From NCBI RefSeq assembly GCF_026241135.1, contig NZ_JAPFGA010000006.1, positions 64,369 to 128,368 of the forward strand: a DNA stretch of 64,000 nucleotides, read 5' to 3'. The DNA is from Galbibacter kalidii. GTDB taxonomy: Bacteria; Bacteroidota; Bacteroidia; Flavobacteriales; Flavobacteriaceae. A program made the position numbers and the translations under genes. Below, piece by piece: positions 16,088-25,453 of this stretch (positions are counted from its first letter, which is position 1; every line of letters starts with the position of its first letter). Under the pieces are notes generated by a model that made no database searches, was not told the origin of the DNA, and worked only from the letters and a program-made list of their open reading frames with translations.

Positions 16088-16322
16088 ACAATTAAATTTT
16101 AAAGTTCAAATAGTTAGCTCTATTAACATTCTCTCAAAGTTTTCAATGTCCTTAGTTAGCTTGCGTTGAAACTATGAGGTTTTGAATGTTAAATATTTCC
16201 AAATATATGTGAAATTATGAAAAAAATTAAACTATAAATGTGTTTTTTTCATTTTTTACACACTTTTTTCGTTAAAAATATAAAATGTGCAATTTACATT
16301 TATAGTAAATAAATTGAAAATG

Positions 16323-16459
16323 AAAAAGGTTGTCTAAAAAGCCTTGGCAAATTGTTTTATCAGTCTGAGCTTGTCGAAGACGTATTGAACTTCAATAAAT
16401 TATACTTCGATAAGCTCAGTATGACAATTCGTTGTATCTCTTTTTGAGACAACCTTTTT
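16323..16459 (-). repeat. Nested double-hairpin repeat element at 3' end of amylase gene
   Basis: Outer arms AAAAAGGTTGTCT/AGACAACCTTTTT; inner AGTCTGAGCTTGTCGAAG/CTTCGATAAGCTCAGTATGAC. Confidence 0.85.
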
Positions 16460-16489: not shown

Positions 16490-17926
16490 TTACTGTACAT
16501 CAGCGATAGACCAAATGGCATATCCATTGGCTGGTGCTTCAAGAGGAGCCTCACCACTTTTGGATGTTTGGGGTGTAGTTGAAGTGCTTGAGGTGTAGTC
16601 TATCAGGTAACTGTTATTCCATTGTGTTTGCACCATGCGCTTTTTTAAACTGCTCGAAGTATTGATGTATAAGATGAGCCCCGGATTTTCAGCGGTTCCT
16701 TTTCTTTTCATGATATATTCATCATTGTCAGCATACACAATTTCAGTTTCCCCGGTGGCAATACTGTTATGGATTTTGATGAGTTGTTTGATAGGGGCTT
16801 TAAACGCATCGTTTTCAAAATCGGAATAGAAGATCGTTGGATAACCGGGATGGGTCAAAATATAGGCGTAAGCCTTCAATTTATTGTCAGCAGCAATATG
16901 ATTATCTGCATTTTCATCCTTTTCTGTGTCGTGATTGGCGGTAAAAGTTACGGCTTTATCCGGATGGGTTTTCCAGAGCATTTCCTGATCGAGGTAAGTA
17001 AGATCGTTATATCTGTCCATAGCTTCCTCAAGTTTGTAAAAAGTAGAAAAATCAAAAACACCGCTTCCGGTCTCGTCGGCATAATCTGCCAGTACGGTTG
17101 CATTGCCGTCCCAGAGTTCGCTTACTGAAAAACCGCCTACTTCTTCCAACCACATTTTAACCACCCAAGGCTCGTAACCCAGGACATAATCAAAGCGCCA
17201 ACCATCAAAACCCATGACATTTTTATAGTATTTTGCTACGGAATTGTCATTTTTCCACAGCCAGTTCTGAACGTACTCCTGATTGTGGTCGAGATTTTGT
17301 TCCGCATAGAACAAGCTACCGTCATCATAAGAGCTGGTACTGTTCGGGTAGAAATTCTCATAATTCCGGTTGAACATTCCCGATGCGTTTCCGTGTTCTT
17401 CATCAAAAAGGGTATAGGTGTTTTTATCGCGATACGGATTGTACTCTTCCCCGCCTCCGGAGTTGTGGTTGATAACAATATCAGCGATAACCTCAAGTCC
17501 GTTGTTGTGGGCTTCAGCAATCAGGGTTTCCAATTCTGTTCGGCTTCCAAAACGGGTTTCTACAGTACCGTGTTGTTCAAATTCACCAAAATCGAAATAA
17601 TCAGAAATATCATATCCCATGGAATACCCTCCCGATTGTCCTTTGGTAGCCACCGGAAGCCATAAACGATCAATCCCTGAGGAAGCCCATTCATCCAGCT
17701 TTCCGGTAAGGAGTGTCCACCATTCACCCCTAGGCTCTACATCCCAGTAAAAAGCTTGCATCATCACACGATTGTTGTTGTCGTATGCTGAAAGATCGAT
17801 GGCCCTTATTTCTGATGGTTCAGGGTTTTCATTTTGGAGAGGATTTTCGGTTACATCATTGTCACTTGAACATGAAATGAACATAAGACCAAAAAGAAGG
17901 CCGAGGGAGTAATAAAAAGTTTTCAT
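16490..17926 (-). CDS. GH13 alpha-amylase, lipoprotein
   Basis: MMQAFYWDVE..., VIADIVINHNSGG, GWRFDYVLGY, FTANHDTEK; lipobox MFISC. Confidence 0.93.
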   Translation of the reverse strand: MKTFYYSLGLLFGLMFISCSSDNDVTENPLQNENPEPSEIRAIDLSAYDNNNRVMMQAFYWDVEPRGEWWTLLTGKLDEWASSGIDRLWLPVATKGQSGGYSMGYDISDYFDFGEFEQHGTVETRFGSRTELETLIAEAHNNGLEVIADIVINHNSGGGEEYNPYRDKNTYTLFDEEHGNASGMFNRNYENFYPNSTSSYDDGSLFYAEQNLDHNQEYVQNWLWKNDNSVAKYYKNVMGFDGWRFDYVLGYEPWVVKMWLEEVGGFSVSELWDGNATVLADYADETGSGVFDFSTFYKLEEAMDRYNDLTYLDQEMLWKTHPDKAVTFTANHDTEKDENADNHIAADNKLKAYAYILTHPGYPTIFYSDFENDAFKAPIKQLIKIHNSIATGETEIVYADNDEYIMKRKGTAENPGLILYINTSSSLKKRMVQTQWNNSYLIDYTSSTSTTPQTSKSGEAPLEAPANGYAIWSIADVQ

Positions 17927-17953
17927 TTGTTAATATTTATTTGTTTTTCAATG

Positions 17954-18019
17954 GTCAGATGGAATGCCCCGATTATCATATCGGTTGGTATCTGAAAAAT
18001 TGGTTATGGGCATTTCATA
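17954..18019 (-). promoter_or_regulatory. 66-nt conserved leader/promoter module (copy A, upstream of amylase)
   Basis: gtcagatggaat...catatcggttgGtatc...gttatgg-catttcata, shared with 23946-24011. Confidence 0.7.
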
Positions 18020-18125: not shown

Positions 18126-19427
18126 TTAGTTTTGAGTGAGGGAATAAGTCAATTCTTCCAGATTGATGGTCACAGCATAATTGCCCGCGGTTACTTCAAT
18201 ATCAGCGCCATTAAGTTCTAATGAACCGTCGGCTCCGTCATCACCATAGTTTACATCCCAAGCATTGTTGGAGCGAAATTTGATCAGACCATCTACGAGA
18301 TCTACGCTGTTGTTGTACCAAACGGCTCCGTCACTGGCATAATCCAGTTTTAGTTCAGCATCGGGACCGTCCCAACCATTGGGCGCAGCACTTCCCACGA
18401 TACCCCAAAAGTCGATGGCTTCGATGGTATAGGTAAGGTCTTTTTCGTTGAAAGTAACCAAGTAATTTCCTGCACTTACAACAATGTTAGAGCCATTGAG
18501 TTCTAAAGTGCCATCAGCTCCATCATCACCATAGTTCACCGCCCAATCGTTGTTTTGTCTGATCTTGATTTCACCATCGGTCAAAGTAACCAAGGCACGC
18601 CATTGGTCTGAAGACGGGTCGTATTCAAACTCTACATCCGGTCCGTCCCAACCATTAGGTGCGGCACTACCTACAATACCCCAGCTGTATGGCTCAATGG
18701 TATAGGTAAGGTCGTTGATGTTGAATTCAATTTTGTATGTTCCCGCAGTAACTTCAATATCGGCACCCCCTTCTTCAAGGGTTCCATCGGCTCCATTGTC
18801 ACCATAATTCAGAGCCCAATCATTGTTTTCGCGGAATTTTATTAATCCGTCAATCAAAGTGGTATAGGCAACATACACTCCGTCTGTTCCTGTTTGATAG
18901 AACGGAACATCCGGGCCATCCCAACCGTTAGGTGTTGCACTTCCTACTACTCCCCAAGTAGTGCTTAGATCCAATACGGTGGAATATGGAGTAACAGTAA
19001 GGCTTACGGGCGTTGAGGTTACCACAGACGAACTGCTCAAACGAGATTCTACAACTATATCTATAGTAGCTTCTACATCGGGCTCAAGCTCCAAATTTAA
19101 TAATCTGGAGTTTAGTTCTGACCCTGTAAAAGTCATGAAAAGATCTGATCCGGCAGGAATGGTTTGGGCCTCTGCAAAATCACCTCCGGCTATATCAAAC
19201 AATATCCGGTAGGTAGGTGCATTAGAAAAACCGAAATCTGGCTCAGTCCAGGAAACGGTAAGTGCTTCATCCGCAGCAGTTTCTTCGGTAAGTACAACCG
19301 AGTTGGTTGAAAGACTTACCGTAGCGTTGGCATTGGAATTTATCATGGTGTATTCCCTGTCATCGCAAGCGGTAAATATCAATACGATACTTAAAAGGAA
19401 TACAGCTTTATTTAGTAGTGTCTTCAT
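18126..19427 (-). CDS. SusE/SusF-like outer-membrane glycan-binding lipoprotein with three tandem domains
   Basis: lipobox IFTAC; three copies of WGxVGSAxPNGWDGPD...NYGDxGADGTLE..G..I.V.AG.Y.... Confidence 0.88.
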   Translation of the reverse strand: MKTLLNKAVFLLSIVLIFTACDDREYTMINSNANATVSLSTNSVVLTEETAADEALTVSWTEPDFGFSNAPTYRILFDIAGGDFAEAQTIPAGSDLFMTFTGSELNSRLLNLELEPDVEATIDIVVESRLSSSSVVTSTPVSLTVTPYSTVLDLSTTWGVVGSATPNGWDGPDVPFYQTGTDGVYVAYTTLIDGLIKFRENNDWALNYGDNGADGTLEEGGADIEVTAGTYKIEFNINDLTYTIEPYSWGIVGSAAPNGWDGPDVEFEYDPSSDQWRALVTLTDGEIKIRQNNDWAVNYGDDGADGTLELNGSNIVVSAGNYLVTFNEKDLTYTIEAIDFWGIVGSAAPNGWDGPDAELKLDYASDGAVWYNNSVDLVDGLIKFRSNNAWDVNYGDDGADGSLELNGADIEVTAGNYAVTINLEELTYSLTQN

Positions 19428-19438
19428 TGTGTTATTTT

Positions 19439-21031
19439 TTAGTAACCTGTATTTTGTGTTAGGTTTGGGTTAACGGTCAATACACTTGACGGTAATGGGA
19501 ACAGATTAAGGTGTTCACTTACTGAAATACCACCGGGTTCATTTCCTTTGAAAGGCCATAGGTAATCACTGGTAGTAAACAGGCTGTAACGAATCAAATC
19601 GGTACGACGCTGTCCTTCCCAGTACAATTCACGTGAACGCTCATCAAGGACAAAATCAAGGGTTAGATCTCCTGAAGTGATATTACCTGTAGTTCCTCCA
19701 TAGGCACGGGTTCTCAATTCGTTAATTGCATTTACAGCTGTGTTCAGATCACCGCCACCACCTCTGAGGCTGGCTTCGGCGTAGTTCAGATAAATCTCAG
19801 CCAAACGAATAATTGGCAGATCAGTAGAAACAAATTCGCCACTGCTGTCATTCCCTTGATTGCCGTTAGAATCAATGTTCTTGAATTTTGTTATGGCATA
19901 ACCATCAGTAAAAGTGGATATATCTTCTATTTCCAGATTCTGACCTTCGGTGTGGAACATAGCTCTCATGTCTTCGGCTTCAAACTTGTTCACCAAAGAT
20001 TTTGTGGTACGCATACCGCCCCAGCCACCATTTACACCAAAATCACCCGGTACCATATCGCCACCAATAGCTCCGTGTACTAAAAAAGTCGTGCCTCCGT
20101 AGGTAGTGGAATTAATACCGTCAAAATTAAGGGCAAAAATGAATTCGTTTTGAGCACCGTTGGTATCGTTATCTGCTAAAAACAACTCATCATAAGCCGT
20201 CCCATTGCCGTTAGCGTCAGTGGTGTTGATGCTATAGGATGAATTCATCACCCTTTCTGAATACGTTACACAATCAGCATAACGATCTTCTCCAGTCCAG
20301 CTCTCGGCATTGAGATACAATTTTGAAAGGAGTGCCCAGGCACCTGCTTTGTCTATTCTACCATAATCGGAGGACTCGGCCAAAAGGTCTTGGATTTCCA
20401 ACAATTCAGATTCAACAAAAGAAAATATTTCGACTCTTGAATTTTGTGCCGGTAATTCAGTAGTAATCTCTGTTATCAAGGGCACATTGCCATACATATC
20501 CATAAGGTTGTAATAGGCAAATGCCCTTAAAAATCGGGCTTCTGCAATATAATTCTGCACTACATTGTCTTCTAGGACAGAAGCATTGTTTATAAAAGAA
20601 TTGCAAAAAGATACTTCCTGTGCCAATCGGACATACATAGCTTCCGTGAAATCGTTGCTACCAGACCAATACTGACCGTGTAAATCGGGCAGACCGGCAT
20701 CACCCCAACCAATAACAGCATGGTCTGTGGTGAGCTCGTTCAGGTTAAAGAGCATCCTTGAATACTGCGAAAATCCTTCATCTATATCTGCAATATCGGG
20801 TTGTCCTGCAGGTCCTTCCTGACCTGTAAGGGCCAAACTGGCATATAGTTTTGCCAAGGCACCGTAAGCTTGGTCTGCGTTGGCGAATACGTCTTCCTCA
20901 GTAAAACTGTCCGGGTCTATTGGGGATTGGTCTAAATCGTCGTGACAGGACACAAACGATACCAAAACCGCAAATAAAATGTGTTTTATAGTCTTCATCT
21001 TTTTCTTCATTTTTTTGTTAAAAATCAACAT
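19439..21031 (-). CDS. SusD/RagB-family nutrient-binding lipoprotein
   Basis: lipobox VSFVSC, C-term NLFPLPSSVLTVNPNLTQNTGY; start possibly 20998. Confidence 0.95.
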   Translation of the reverse strand: MLIFNKKMKKKMKTIKHILFAVLVSFVSCHDDLDQSPIDPDSFTEEDVFANADQAYGALAKLYASLALTGQEGPAGQPDIADIDEGFSQYSRMLFNLNELTTDHAVIGWGDAGLPDLHGQYWSGSNDFTEAMYVRLAQEVSFCNSFINNASVLEDNVVQNYIAEARFLRAFAYYNLMDMYGNVPLITEITTELPAQNSRVEIFSFVESELLEIQDLLAESSDYGRIDKAGAWALLSKLYLNAESWTGEDRYADCVTYSERVMNSSYSINTTDANGNGTAYDELFLADNDTNGAQNEFIFALNFDGINSTTYGGTTFLVHGAIGGDMVPGDFGVNGGWGGMRTTKSLVNKFEAEDMRAMFHTEGQNLEIEDISTFTDGYAITKFKNIDSNGNQGNDSSGEFVSTDLPIIRLAEIYLNYAEASLRGGGGDLNTAVNAINELRTRAYGGTTGNITSGDLTLDFVLDERSRELYWEGQRRTDLIRYSLFTTSDYLWPFKGNEPGGISVSEHLNLFPLPSSVLTVNPNLTQNTGY

Positions 21032-23921
21032 TTACTCCCAATACAAACGACCGTGGTCTTGGGTAGAAGTTATTGTCAATACCCCCGTCGATTTCGGGAT
21101 CTAGTCCGTCGTAATCAGTTACAGTCAATACATTTTGTAATGAACTATATATCCTTATGCTGGTATTTTCTATGGCTTGGTCTAAAGTATAGCCCAATGA
21201 GATGTTGTCTATTTTGAAGAAAGAAGCCTCTTGAACAAAATGGTCACTCAATGCATTGGGGTCTGAATAGTTTTCAAATCCGGTGTTGAAATAATCAGCG
21301 TGGATGTTGTCCAGCATACTCAAGTCGGTTACCCCGGCTAGGATTCCTCTACCGGCAAATACGTCATTATACATATAATTACCAAGGCTGGCACGTGTTT
21401 GTGCCGAAAAATCCCATTTTTTATAGTTTGCATTGATATTGAAACCCATAAAGATATCAGCATTCGGACTATTGAAGATGTACTTGTCCTGATCGTTTAT
21501 CATACCGTCTTCGTTTCTATCCACATATACACCCTCTATAGGTTTTCCGGTTTCGTCATACACTTGCTGATAAACAAGGAAGCTTGCAGCTTCTTCACCT
21601 ACCCGATGTACTTGAGCGAAGTTGCCTACACCGGATGAAATACCTCCTGTTGGTTGATCCACAGAAAGTTTTGTGATCTCATTGTCGTTATAGGAAATGT
21701 TGTAGTTGAGTGACAGATTGAAATCATCCCTTCTGATGGCATCAACATTAATATTGAATTCAATTCCTCGATTTTCCATGTTACCGATATTGGCATCGAT
21801 ACGATTCCCAAAGTTGGTAAAAGGATCCACAAGTGAAGAAGCGATTAGATCTTCAGTATTACGGATGTAAGCATTTACCAAACCGGATACACGGCCGTCA
21901 AACAGGCTGTAATCCAAACCAACGTTGAAAGTTTTACCAACTTCCCAACGTAAGTTCTCGTTAATAGGCTCAGGGCGATAGGTTTGATAGAAACTATTGC
22001 CAAGTTGATACCGGGCACTGTCGGTACTACCTGTATAACGTGTCAGGAAGAGGTAATCTCCCAAACCGTTTACGTTGGCAATTTCACCGTAACCTACACG
22101 TAGTTTCAACAAGTTGAATGCAGAGTCTTCCATAAAGGATTCGTCGCTTATCTTCCAAGCCAAAGCTACCGATGGAAAATACCCCCAACGATCTTCCGGA
22201 TTCAGTTTTGAAGAGGCATCGGCCCTAAAAGAAGCCGTTAATAGATATTTTCCTTTGTAATCATAGTTTAGCCTTCCAAAATAAGACAACAGTACATTTT
22301 TACTTTTGTCTATAAATTCATATTTCAATCCGTCTTCCTGAGCTTCACTGTCATAACTTTCGTTGTCATATTCAAACGATTGGTAGGAATGCCCAGCCAC
22401 AAAGGAAATGTTATGCGTGTCGTTTAATGTTTTTGTATAAGTGGCATAGGCATCAAATAAAAGATTTGTCGAAATGTTCGAGTACCTGTTTAAAGAACCG
22501 TTCCAAAGCATATCGGAGGTAGGCATTAATTCTGAAACTATACGCCTTCCGTTGCTATTGGATTTATCGATACCCACGTTTACTGTAGCGGTTAAATCAG
22601 GAAAGAAGTGTAATTTGTAATCTACCTTACCATTTACTACAAAGCGTCTTACTTCGGCACTGTCGTCAATCAGATCCAACAAGGCCACCGGGTTGGTGGG
22701 TGCTTGACTGTTTTGGGTCACACCGTCTGGATTAAGCCATGCATAATATCCAAAGGGAGAGTTTTCATCAAAAACACTTTGTGTAGGATCAAATTGGATG
22801 GCACTACCTATGGCACCTCTGTCTGCAAAAGTGTTTTCAATGTACATTCCCCGGGCGTTGAGCTCTAGTTTTAGGTGGTCGTCCATCAATCTGGGTGTAA
22901 GGTTAATTGAGGCTGTTCCTCTACTGAATTCATCACCTTTTAGGATTCCTTCGTGATTTGAAAAACCTGCAGACACTCTCATGGGTATACCAAAAGCACT
23001 TCCCAAAGCACTAACGTTGTGGTCTTGCCCTACAGCAAAGGTGTAGATTTCGTCTTGCCAATCGGTGTTGGCATTACCCATCCTGGCAGCAGCATCGGGA
23101 TTGTCCAGACTTAAAACCAGTTCCCTGAAACGGTCGGCTTCCAATACATCTACAGTTTCTGTTACATTATAGATTGTGGTCTGTGAGCTGGCATTAAACT
23201 CAAACTCATGTTTTTTTCCTTTTTTGGTAGTAATTAAAATTACGCCATTGGCACCACGGGATCCATAAATAGCTGTTGAAGAGGCATCTTTAAGCACCAC
23301 AAAGCTTTCAATATCGTTAGGATTGATAAAGTTAAGTGGGTTTCTGGTGCCTCCTACACCTGAATTATCGAGTGGAATTCCATCAACAACAATTAGCGGA
23401 GAACTGGTTAACGACAAGGACCCCATACCGCGGATGGTAATTTCCTGTCCGTCACCCGGAGCACCACTACCCGAAGTTACGTTAACTCCGGCTACCCTAC
23501 CGCTAATAAGTGATTGGGCCGATACAATGGGGCCTTTATTAAAATCTTCAGAGGTTACTAAATCGGTAGTACCGGTAAGGTCTTCCTTTTTAACCGATCC
23601 ATAACCAATAACCACAACTTCTTCCAGTTGTTGGGTGTCTTCTTGCAGTGCTACATTCATAGTGCTTCCTGCAACTACTTTTTCAGTAGTAGTGAATCCG
23701 ATATATGAAAATTGAAGTACATCTCCATCGTTGGCATTGATTTCGTATGCACCGTCAAAATCGGTCGTAGTTCCAGTTGTACTTCCTTTTACAAGGACAT
23801 TCACTCCCGGAATAGGTGTTCCCGTAGCGGCTTCTGTTACCACACCACTAACAGTTTGCTGTGCAAAGACCCCTAAGGGAATCAAAAACAGCAATAAGTT
23901 TAGTTTTTGTAATATTTTCAT
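21018..23921 (-). CDS. SusC/RagA-family TonB-linked outer membrane protein
   Basis: VSGVVTEAATGTPIPGVNVLVKGS, plug VVLKDASSTAIYGSRGANGVILITTKKG. Confidence 0.97.
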   Translation of the reverse strand: MKILQKLNLLLFLIPLGVFAQQTVSGVVTEAATGTPIPGVNVLVKGSTTGTTTDFDGAYEINANDGDVLQFSYIGFTTTEKVVAGSTMNVALQEDTQQLEEVVVIGYGSVKKEDLTGTTDLVTSEDFNKGPIVSAQSLISGRVAGVNVTSGSGAPGDGQEITIRGMGSLSLTSSPLIVVDGIPLDNSGVGGTRNPLNFINPNDIESFVVLKDASSTAIYGSRGANGVILITTKKGKKHEFEFNASSQTTIYNVTETVDVLEADRFRELVLSLDNPDAAARMGNANTDWQDEIYTFAVGQDHNVSALGSAFGIPMRVSAGFSNHEGILKGDEFSRGTASINLTPRLMDDHLKLELNARGMYIENTFADRGAIGSAIQFDPTQSVFDENSPFGYYAWLNPDGVTQNSQAPTNPVALLDLIDDSAEVRRFVVNGKVDYKLHFFPDLTATVNVGIDKSNSNGRRIVSELMPTSDMLWNGSLNRYSNISTNLLFDAYATYTKTLNDTHNISFVAGHSYQSFEYDNESYDSEAQEDGLKYEFIDKSKNVLLSYFGRLNYDYKGKYLLTASFRADASSKLNPEDRWGYFPSVALAWKISDESFMEDSAFNLLKLRVGYGEIANVNGLGDYLFLTRYTGSTDSARYQLGNSFYQTYRPEPINENLRWEVGKTFNVGLDYSLFDGRVSGLVNAYIRNTEDLIASSLVDPFTNFGNRIDANIGNMENRGIEFNINVDAIRRDDFNLSLNYNISYNDNEITKLSVDQPTGGISSGVGNFAQVHRVGEEAASFLVYQQVYDETGKPIEGVYVDRNEDGMINDQDKYIFNSPNADIFMGFNINANYKKWDFSAQTRASLGNYMYNDVFAGRGILAGVTDLSMLDNIHADYFNTGFENYSDPNALSDHFVQEASFFKIDNISLGYTLDQAIENTSIRIYSSLQNVLTVTDYDGLDPEIDGGIDNNFYPRPRSFVLGVNVDF

Positions 23922-23945
23922 CTGTTCTTTTTTATTGTTTTGTTT

Positions 23946-24011
23946 GTCAGATGGAATTCGCCATAAAACATATCGGTTGTTATCAACTTAAATGTTATGG
24001 CTCATTTCATA
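23946..24011 (-). promoter_or_regulatory. 66-nt conserved leader/promoter module (copy B, upstream of susC2)
   Basis: Same three blocks and same length as 17954-18019; ends 24 nt before start codon. Confidence 0.7.
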
Positions 24012-24297: not shown

Positions 24298-24417
24298 AAA
24301 TCAACTGCCTCGGGAAATCCATGAGGTATTAAAAGGGGCAAACCTTAATTCATTTCGATGCAGACCATCGGGGAAACTTGCCTAACGGCAGTCAGGTAAA
24401 ACCCACTTAGTGGGATT
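24298..24417 (+). ncRNA. Three-hairpin repeated 5' leader element, copy 1
   Basis: CCTCG-GG-aaat-CC-A-TGAGG; CGATGcagacCATCG; CCCACTTAGTGGG; ends 13 nt before ATG 24431; second copy at 54243-54343. Confidence 0.6.
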
Positions 24418-24430
24418 CAACTCAATTTAT

Positions 24431-25453
24431 ATGAAAAAGAAAATGACTATAAAGGAACTCGCACGAGAGTTGGATGTTTCTGTTTCCACGGTTTCAAAAG
24501 CCATGAGAAACAGTCCTGAAATCAGTAAGGATACCATTGAAAAGGTGCAGGCTTTTGCAAAACTGTACAATTACAAGCCGAATAACATAGCACTGAGTCT
24601 TAAAAACAAAAAAACCAAGAATATTGCGGTGATCATTCCCGAGATCGTTCACCATTTTTTCACCTTGATCGTGAGTGGGATAGAACACAAATCCAATGAA
24701 CTGGGCTATAATGTTATTGTGTGCTTATCCAATGAGTCTTTTGCTAAGGAAGTGATCAATATGGAGACCATGGCCAACGGAAGTATAGACGGCTTCCTGC
24801 TGTCGTTATCCAAGGAGACCCTTTTGAAGAAAGACTTTCAGCATTTAAGGGAAGTCATCAATCAAGGAATGCCTTTGGTGATGTTCGACCGCGTTTCCGA
24901 AGAAATTTATTGTGACAAAGTGGTTATTGACGATGCAAGGGCTTCTTACAATGCCATTCAACATCTTATTTATACCGGATGTAGGCGTATAGCATTGATC
25001 ACCACAGCCGATTATGTCTCCGTAGGTAAATTGCGAACCTCCGGATATATCAATGCTTTAACAGATGAAGGGATTGAGGTAGATCCGAATCTTATTGTGA
25101 AAGTCGATGATATCGGGGAACTTGAACAAAAGGTAAAAGAATTGTTCGACACTCAAAGTTTTGACGCAGTTTTTGGCGTAAACGAAATCTATGCCGTTGT
25201 GGCAATGCGGGAAGCTCACAACAGAGGCTATAAAATCCCGATGGAAATGAGTTTTATAGGTTTTAGTGATGGAATTTTATCCAAATACGCCTATCCATCA
25301 CTAACGACTGTAGTGCAACACGGTTATGAAATAGGTGAAAAAGCGGCTCAACTGCTTATAGAAAGGTTAGAAAATGAGGAAGAAGATGAGAATTTTAAAA
25401 CAGAAGTCATCAAAACATCTTTATTGGTTCGGGAATCTACAAAACCCGTTTAA
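24431..25453 (+). CDS. LacI-family transcriptional regulator
   Basis: MTIKELARELDVSVSTVSKAMRNSPEISKDTIEKVQAFAKLYNYKPN HTH plus periplasmic-binding-like domain. Confidence 0.96.
   Translation: MKKKMTIKELARELDVSVSTVSKAMRNSPEISKDTIEKVQAFAKLYNYKPNNIALSLKNKKTKNIAVIIPEIVHHFFTLIVSGIEHKSNELGYNVIVCLSNESFAKEVINMETMANGSIDGFLLSLSKETLLKKDFQHLREVINQGMPLVMFDRVSEEIYCDKVVIDDARASYNAIQHLIYTGCRRIALITTADYVSVGKLRTSGYINALTDEGIEVDPNLIVKVDDIGELEQKVKELFDTQSFDAVFGVNEIYAVVAMREAHNRGYKIPMEMSFIGFSDGILSKYAYPSLTTVVQHGYEIGEKAAQLLIERLENEEEDENFKTEVIKTSLLVRESTKPV

Follow-up and report, generated by a model that had tools for sequence, protein, structure and literature searches.

The alpha-amylase and susC2 leaders share a repeat of about 90 nt

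The stretch of DNA analysed here (the window, 64,000 nt of the Galbibacter kalidii genome) carries on its minus strand an alpha-amylase gene and susC2, which encodes a SusC-like TonB-dependent receptor. An earlier note had placed a 66-nt module upstream of each gene and proposed it as a co-regulatory operator or structured leader RNA linking the two. The three blocks said to be common to both leaders were all found at their claimed coordinates, and the spacers between module and start codon have the lengths given there, 27 nt (17927-17953) for amylase and 24 nt (23922-23945) for susC2. The positions of the 66-nt modules were thus correct but their extent was not, as the repeat unit continues past the proposed right edge to the start codon. 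The similarity covers about 90 nt, running from an upstream ATGAA through an A-rich spacer up to and including the start codon, and the length from ATGAA to ATGAA is 92 nt in the amylase copy (copy A) and 89 nt in the susC2 copy (copy B). The features are listed below, where R1 is a sequence-only model built from the four own-genome copies described in the next section.

16490..17926, minus strand: alpha-amylase gene behind copy A (Pfam Alpha-amylase, Alpha-amy_C_pro)
17922..18018, minus strand: copy A, including both terminal ATGAA motifs, the last at the amylase start (model R1, E 1.7e-26)
18014..18018, minus strand: left ATGAA of copy A, putative old start codon, with the mini-ORF ATG AAA TGC CCA TAA
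18008..18018, minus strand: left arm of hairpin 1 in copy A, ATGAAATGCCC (sequence, pair counts)
17959..17969, minus strand: right arm of hairpin 1 in copy A, GGGCATTCCAT (sequence, pair counts)
17956..17961, minus strand: left arm of helix 2 in copy A, CATCTG (sequence, pair counts)
17924..17929, minus strand: right arm of helix 2 in copy A, CAAATG, including the amylase start (one mismatch against CATCTG)
21018..23921, minus strand: susC2, SusC-like TonB-dependent receptor gene behind copy B (Pfam Plug, TonB_dep_Rec_b-barrel, CarbopepD_reg_2)
23917..24010, minus strand: copy B, including both terminal ATGAA motifs, the last at the susC2 start (model R1, E 2.5e-23)
24006..24010, minus strand: left ATGAA of copy B, putative old start codon, now ATG AAA TGA; the site is empty in relatives
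23997..24010, minus strand: left arm of hairpin 1 in copy B, ATGAAATGAGCCAT (sequence, folding)
23951..23964, minus strand: right arm of hairpin 1 in copy B, ATGGCGAATTCCAT (GA/GA step against the left arm)
23948..23953, minus strand: left arm of helix 2 in copy B, CATCTG (sequence, pair counts, folding)
23919..23924, minus strand: right arm of helix 2 in copy B, CAGATG, including the susC2 start (sequence, pair counts, folding)

Two other repeats were seen in the region. On the minus strand between the amylase gene and the upstream susC1, the stretch 16320-16455 is bounded by the inverted repeats GGTTGTCT...AGACAACC (by eye) and resembles a small mobile repeat distinct from the element, and the SusE-like gene (window 18184-18851) contains an internal 110-nt repeat in three copies that are 70-72% alike.

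The repeat belongs to a dispersed family

The pattern CAACCGATATG-N12-TTCCATCTGA, with at most three mismatches, matched four times in the 4.66-Mb own genome whereas the reversed control pattern gave no match, so the amylase/susC2 similarity is not due to chance. The two additional matches lie before a PAP2-type phosphatase gene and before the gene of an exported protein of unknown function (labels from translations). The exact core pattern with a gap of 5-25 was confined to the own genome among the 99 searched. Model R1 found 43 matches in the own genome at E<=1 and 26 at E<0.01, the latter representing 25 elements since two of the matches are halves of one. In 21 of the 25, an ORF of at least 80 aa begins at the terminal ATG (a few nucleotides further on at L050), and the other four comprise one with a 72-aa ORF and three with no ORF; in a wider set that takes in weaker matches and other genomes, an ORF of at least 80 aa stands at the element end in 71 of 88 loci. 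As read from their translations, the genes behind the own-genome copies are unrelated and have no common function. The presence of copies before unrelated genes of the same genome shows that the element is not starch-specific.

The best R1 match reached E<=1e-5 in 28 of the 99 genomes (own and relatives); at E<=1, matches were obtained in 94 of the 99, chance matches among them. A draw of 296 genomes across the phylum gave 15 with a match at E<=1e-5, of which ten belong to the same family (own genome included), four to one other family of the class and one to a more distant group. The range of the element is mainly the Flavobacteriaceae. Tandem arrays also occur: at least four head-to-tail units of about 90 nt, joined at ATGAA, precede a pyrH-like gene in G019, and another array was found in G298, from another family of the same class. 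A scan of the window with Rfam 15 returned only tRNA and no family matching the element, and at seven loci with copies Rfam gave, at E<=1, two weak matches only, both far from the element. There were no matches in viral contigs (one query, exact pattern), and blastn gave none in phage records (one query, a G012-type copy) or plasmid records (one query, the susC2 copy).

Some copies contain other sequences. A second hairpin repeat, approximately CCTGCCTRCCGGYAGGCAGG, lies inside element copies at or just before the CAT, at L041, L046, L047, L053, L056 and L065 in the own genome and at L254, L271 and L284 in public genomes; this situation resembles that of the small repeats that target PATE palindromes in Haloquadratum, as far as the PATE account used here goes (PMC3119063). 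A longer form of the element, whose internal stretch bears CACGA...TCGTG-like arms and is similarly placed in several genera, was seen at L040, L042, L044/L045 and L046 in the own genome and at L218, L236, L267 and L279 in public genomes; it may represent an older full-length element.

Empty sites in related genomes point to insertion at ATGAA

Within the own genus, reading of the flanks by eye shows that the element is absent from susC2 in G001, G002, G003 and G006, where the same flank passes directly to the starting ATGAA; in G004 the susC2 copy is diverged, and in G005 another insert occupies that ATGAAA (by eye). The amylase gene is without the element in G001, G002, G004, G005 and G006 and has a degenerate copy of it in G003 (by eye; the G004 call was taken from the upstream line, as the automatic start is a later ATG). 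The earlier note had held that its link would fall if the similarity were absent in related genomes, and it is largely absent there: susC2 is empty in four of the six and amylase in five of the six. Only the own genome (G000), and none of its six congeners, has the element at both genes, so there is no case for a conserved amylase-susC2 link.

A further comparison is provided by G012, which contains 26 near-identical copies (at most three mismatches to one right end) where its three congeners contain none. The right end is followed by ATGAA in 24 of the 26 copies and not in the other two, the search pattern having ended before ATGAA; on the left, ATGAA is present in 23 of 26, is visible to its first base only in one and differs in two. 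Nineteen of the 26 copies open an ORF of at least 77 aa, and five precede an ATGAA with no long ORF. For serC, argG and the genes at L076 and L074, the order is flank-ATGAA-gene in the sister species and flank-ATGAA-element-ATGAA-gene in G012.

When flanks were aligned, the score exceeded all 300 shuffles in 4/4 comparisons for susC2, 3/3 for serC, 2/3 for argG, 1/3 for the L076 gene and 1/1 for the L074 gene, giving empty sites with colinear flanks for five of the eight genes tested. The alignments for amylase (0/4), thrA (0/4) and the L089 gene (0/3) did not exceed the shuffles, the flanks of these genes having diverged, and an empty site for the amylase copy is therefore not proven. Sequences with copies or inserts present, or with a misplaced start, were left out of these alignments (L198 and L199 for amylase, L188 and L195 for susC2, L178 and L181 for thrA). 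The same target can be used again: the ATGAAA occupied at the L071 gene bears another subtype in G099, and remnants occur there in G100 and G101. Different inserts beginning with ATGAAACCC were also noticed at ATGAAA starts, near 1355 of L195 (G005 susC2) and near 1425 of L181 (G006 thrA); they align poorly with each other and may form another family that shares this target.

Comparison with the empty sites shows that ATGAA remains on both sides after insertion. Together with the empty sites themselves and the burst in G012, this points to a non-autonomous mobile element that inserts at ATGAA. Sequence comparison documents a repeat family bounded by ATGAA at both ends, with empty sites, a burst, arrays, reuse of the same gene and helices with compensatory changes, and we give a probability of roughly 85% to the reading that the module belongs to a dispersed family of non-autonomous mobile elements, about 90 nt long, which insert at ATGAA and rebuild the start.

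These data bear directly on the proposal of a starch-specific co-regulatory operator or leader RNA, for example one bound by the LacI-type regulator whose gene lies at 24410-25453. Such a proposal would account for two similar copies in the same locus, both a short way from a start codon, and for the LacI-family gene adjoining susC2. However, at least 23 further own-genome elements precede unrelated genes and no other species of the genus has the element at both genes: it is neither confined to the two starch genes in the own genome nor conserved at them in the six congeners. The regulatory link between amylase and susC2 that the earlier note had suggested is not supported, and a starch operator appears highly improbable; its LacI version was rejected in view of the genome-wide spread of the element.

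Copies are concentrated at gene starts

A scan of public genomes with a pattern that fixed the terminal ATGAA, and not the gene behind it, returned at least 119 stretches, the matches listed holding 122 distinct copies in 119 loci. Among the matches listed, 96 of the 122 copies open an ORF that either has at least 80 aa or continues past the edge of the locus. The other 26 have no such ORF, and in four of them a further copy comes next; taken by themselves, the first 80 loci give 62/81. The left ATGAA lies at the expected distance in 75 of the 96 copies, again among the matches listed, and in none of these 75 does the empty-site frame reach an upstream ATG at 30 codons or more. This lack of upstream extension indicates that the targets are gene starts and not internal methionines.

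The window contains 272 ATGAA sites, of which 14 are ORF first codons, 10 lie near them, 195 are coding and 53 are intergenic. If start and non-coding sites were equally open to insertion, starts would account for at most 24/77 (31%). The observed proportions exceed this background, with binomial values of 6e-17 for the public copies (62/81, among the matches listed), 1e-5 for G012 (19/26) and 7e-8 for the own genome (21/25), values that are rough as the copies are not independent and the background comes from one window. The bias could result from selection against copies at other sites, from a true preference, or from both.

The element can form two mutually exclusive helices

Two helices can be drawn in the element: hairpin 1, which pairs ATGAAAYNNCC with GGNNRTTNCAT, and helix 2, which pairs CATSTG with CASATG and includes the start codon. 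At the free position of helix 2 (S..S), the public copies among the matches listed have G..C in 64 cases, C..G in 56 and a mismatch in 2 of 122, so that the position is paired in 120 of 122; the other letters of this helix were fixed by the search pattern and are uninformative on pairing. For hairpin 1, an alignment of 58 copies (54 public, among the matches listed, and 4 from G000) gave 85.3% standard pairs against 78.3% when shuffled and 16-42% when slid, controls that overstate significance as the copies are related. In two pairs of hairpin 1 both partners have changed, and a G.A step replaces two pairs in many copies. RNAalifold, unaided, predicted helix 2 and did not predict hairpin 1. 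As the same CAT is needed both for helix 2 and for the outer pairs of hairpin 1, the two are mutually exclusive. The two ends of the element differ and, by inspection of the 58 aligned copies, have no terminal inverted repeats; the alignment and pair counts do place a subterminal hairpin. The structured leader of the earlier proposal is thereby borne out, with two helices bearing compensatory changes, in sense orientation and directly before the start codon.

In the predicted folds the susC2 start AUG lies within helix 2 (probability of being unpaired 0.03-0.04), and the 66-nt susC2 module is clearly better folded than its shuffles (z -3.4), the amylase module giving z -1.3. The amylase copy has a mismatch in helix 2, and start codons of empty sites are likewise predicted to be largely paired; an effect of the element on translation is thus hypothetical, and plausible from the modelled folds.

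Could these structures belong to a widespread cis-regulatory leader RNA, riboswitch-like or the target of an sRNA or protein, that serves a large selected regulon and is copied by recombination? The sense orientation, the conserved structure and the position of the start codon within helix 2 would all suit it. Against it, the genes share no function as read from their translations, copies are not retained at orthologous genes, G012 shows a species-specific burst of near-identical copies, Rfam has no match and ATGAA is found on both sides after insertion; we regard such a regulon as very unlikely. A leader-peptide gene, in which a small in-frame ORF of the element ends on the next start and couples translation, was suggested by three of the first four copies, which hold such an ORF with its stop overlapping the ATGA start (frames by eye). 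The fourth copy stops early, however, and the loop region varies freely between subtypes, and the leader-peptide reading, to which we give hardly any credence, was rejected on these grounds.

Search for a mobilising enzyme and comparison with known systems

For the mobile element favoured here, the mobilising enzyme was sought by a Y1_Tnp search and was not found, with no match in cis. The Y1_Tnp list comprised 32 rows, two of which had no locus and were left out of the scan. When 48 Y1-transposase loci were scanned with R1, no element bounded a transposase and 46 loci had no copy; in the other two, the copy lies before a trpF-like gene (L331) and behind a Cas1-like gene (L347). These counts led us to reject a Y1 transposase as mobiliser in cis. 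Reading back 260 nt from ten partial matches revealed no autonomous copy, no gene lying between the two ends. It should be noted that L347 (Snuella sedimenti) has at 1471-2088 a RAYT-like Y1 gene between Cas9-like and Cas1-like ORFs, the element copy coming after the Cas1-like ORF (Cas labels read from translations).

A REP-like element moved by a host RAYT-type Y1 transposase would also be a small structured repeat in many copies, and Y1 proteins of RAYT-like size, for instance 187 to 205 aa, occur in the carriers G005, G000, G102 and G103. By contrast, there is no conserved GTAG tag and there are no invariant GTAG or CGTC columns in the 58 aligned copies, the Y1 loci are nearly all free of copies and the two present do not flank the transposase, four carriers (G011, G027, G060 and G104) gave no Y1_Tnp match, and the boundaries of IS200 in G012 show other targets. 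We consider an origin of this kind unlikely. REPs are, in the part of their description drawn on here (PMC3733652), small high-copy hairpin repeats for which mobilisation in trans by Y1-type transposases is assumed, a similarity to the present element, but their length is 20-40 bp and their terminal tag GTAG or CGTC, whereas our element is about 90 nt long, has no tag and sits at start codons.

The terminal inverted repeats expected of a MITE of a DDE transposon are absent. HEARO elements sit at ATGA. IsrB/HEARO (OMEGA) systems combine an NTGA-type motif beside the element with RNA structure, as here, but their wRNA alone is about 300 nt according to the portions of the accounts used (PMC9581776, PMC9755519), and the present element has no nuclease gene and no Rfam match. 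The PATEs of Haloquadratum, as far as their account is followed here (PMC3119063), are likewise free of transposase and of terminal inverted repeats, have palindromes near their ends, reach many copies per genome and receive other small repeats in their palindromes. Their ends resemble IS605-type transposons, whereas no such partner was found for our element and no ends common to it and an autonomous Y1 element were seen at the 48 Y1 loci; in the same part of that account (PMC3119063) PATEs are said to cause no target duplications and no start-codon placement is noted, while our element has ATGAA on both sides and lies at start codons. IS608 of the IS200/IS605 family, in the part of its description considered (PMC5934647), also inserts beside a fixed short target kept on its left flank and has subterminal hairpins, as here, and its cleavage sites are recognised by guide pairing, as is proposed here; it differs by its TTAC/TCAA sequences with a guide at each end, in place of the one internal CAT that would serve both ATGAA ends, and by its TnpA gene, which our element does not have. 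Small non-autonomous elements are thus already known (PATEs, REPs), and settling on start codons and rebuilding them is the new feature. No description of the element was recognised in the literature searched, and one may be in print, as most subscription journals lie outside that search.

Proposed mechanism and implications

We propose that the element inserts in one orientation at ATGAA, mostly the ATGAA that opens a gene, leaving that motif on each side. What had been the start codon would become the left boundary and open a mini-ORF of 2-4 codons, and at the right boundary the gene would keep an intact ATGAA start, now behind an A-rich leader derived from the element. At each end, the flanking ATG could pair with the internal CAT, in a manner reminiscent of the pairing between guide and cleavage site in IS200/IS605. 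Ends without inverted repeats, the single orientation, ATGAA on both sides and the internal CAT lead us to favour single-strand transposition with the enzyme provided in trans, a mechanism to which, by judgement, we would give somewhat less than an even chance. Selection would retain copies at start codons because the reading frame is left whole there, and the element may lower or condition translation, given that a 6-bp stem can take in the start AUG. More tentatively, the element might define a new class in which one internal CAT between two hairpins pairs with the ATG at both ends and with the target, homing to ATGAA starts and replacing leaders by a stem that hides the start codon, with a so far unrecognised system, single-strand or RNA-based, as its mobiliser.

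Mobile elements would be expected either to stay clear of genes or to disrupt them. The element described here settles on first codons, those of core genes included (serC-, argG- and pyrH-like by translation), where the frame stays whole and the leader is replaced. If confirmed, this would be a natural and recurrent route of 5' leader swapping and a testable case of target choice via start-codon pairing, and would explain why some leaders of Bacteroidota resemble a shared regulon; shared leaders in polysaccharide loci need not mean co-regulation.
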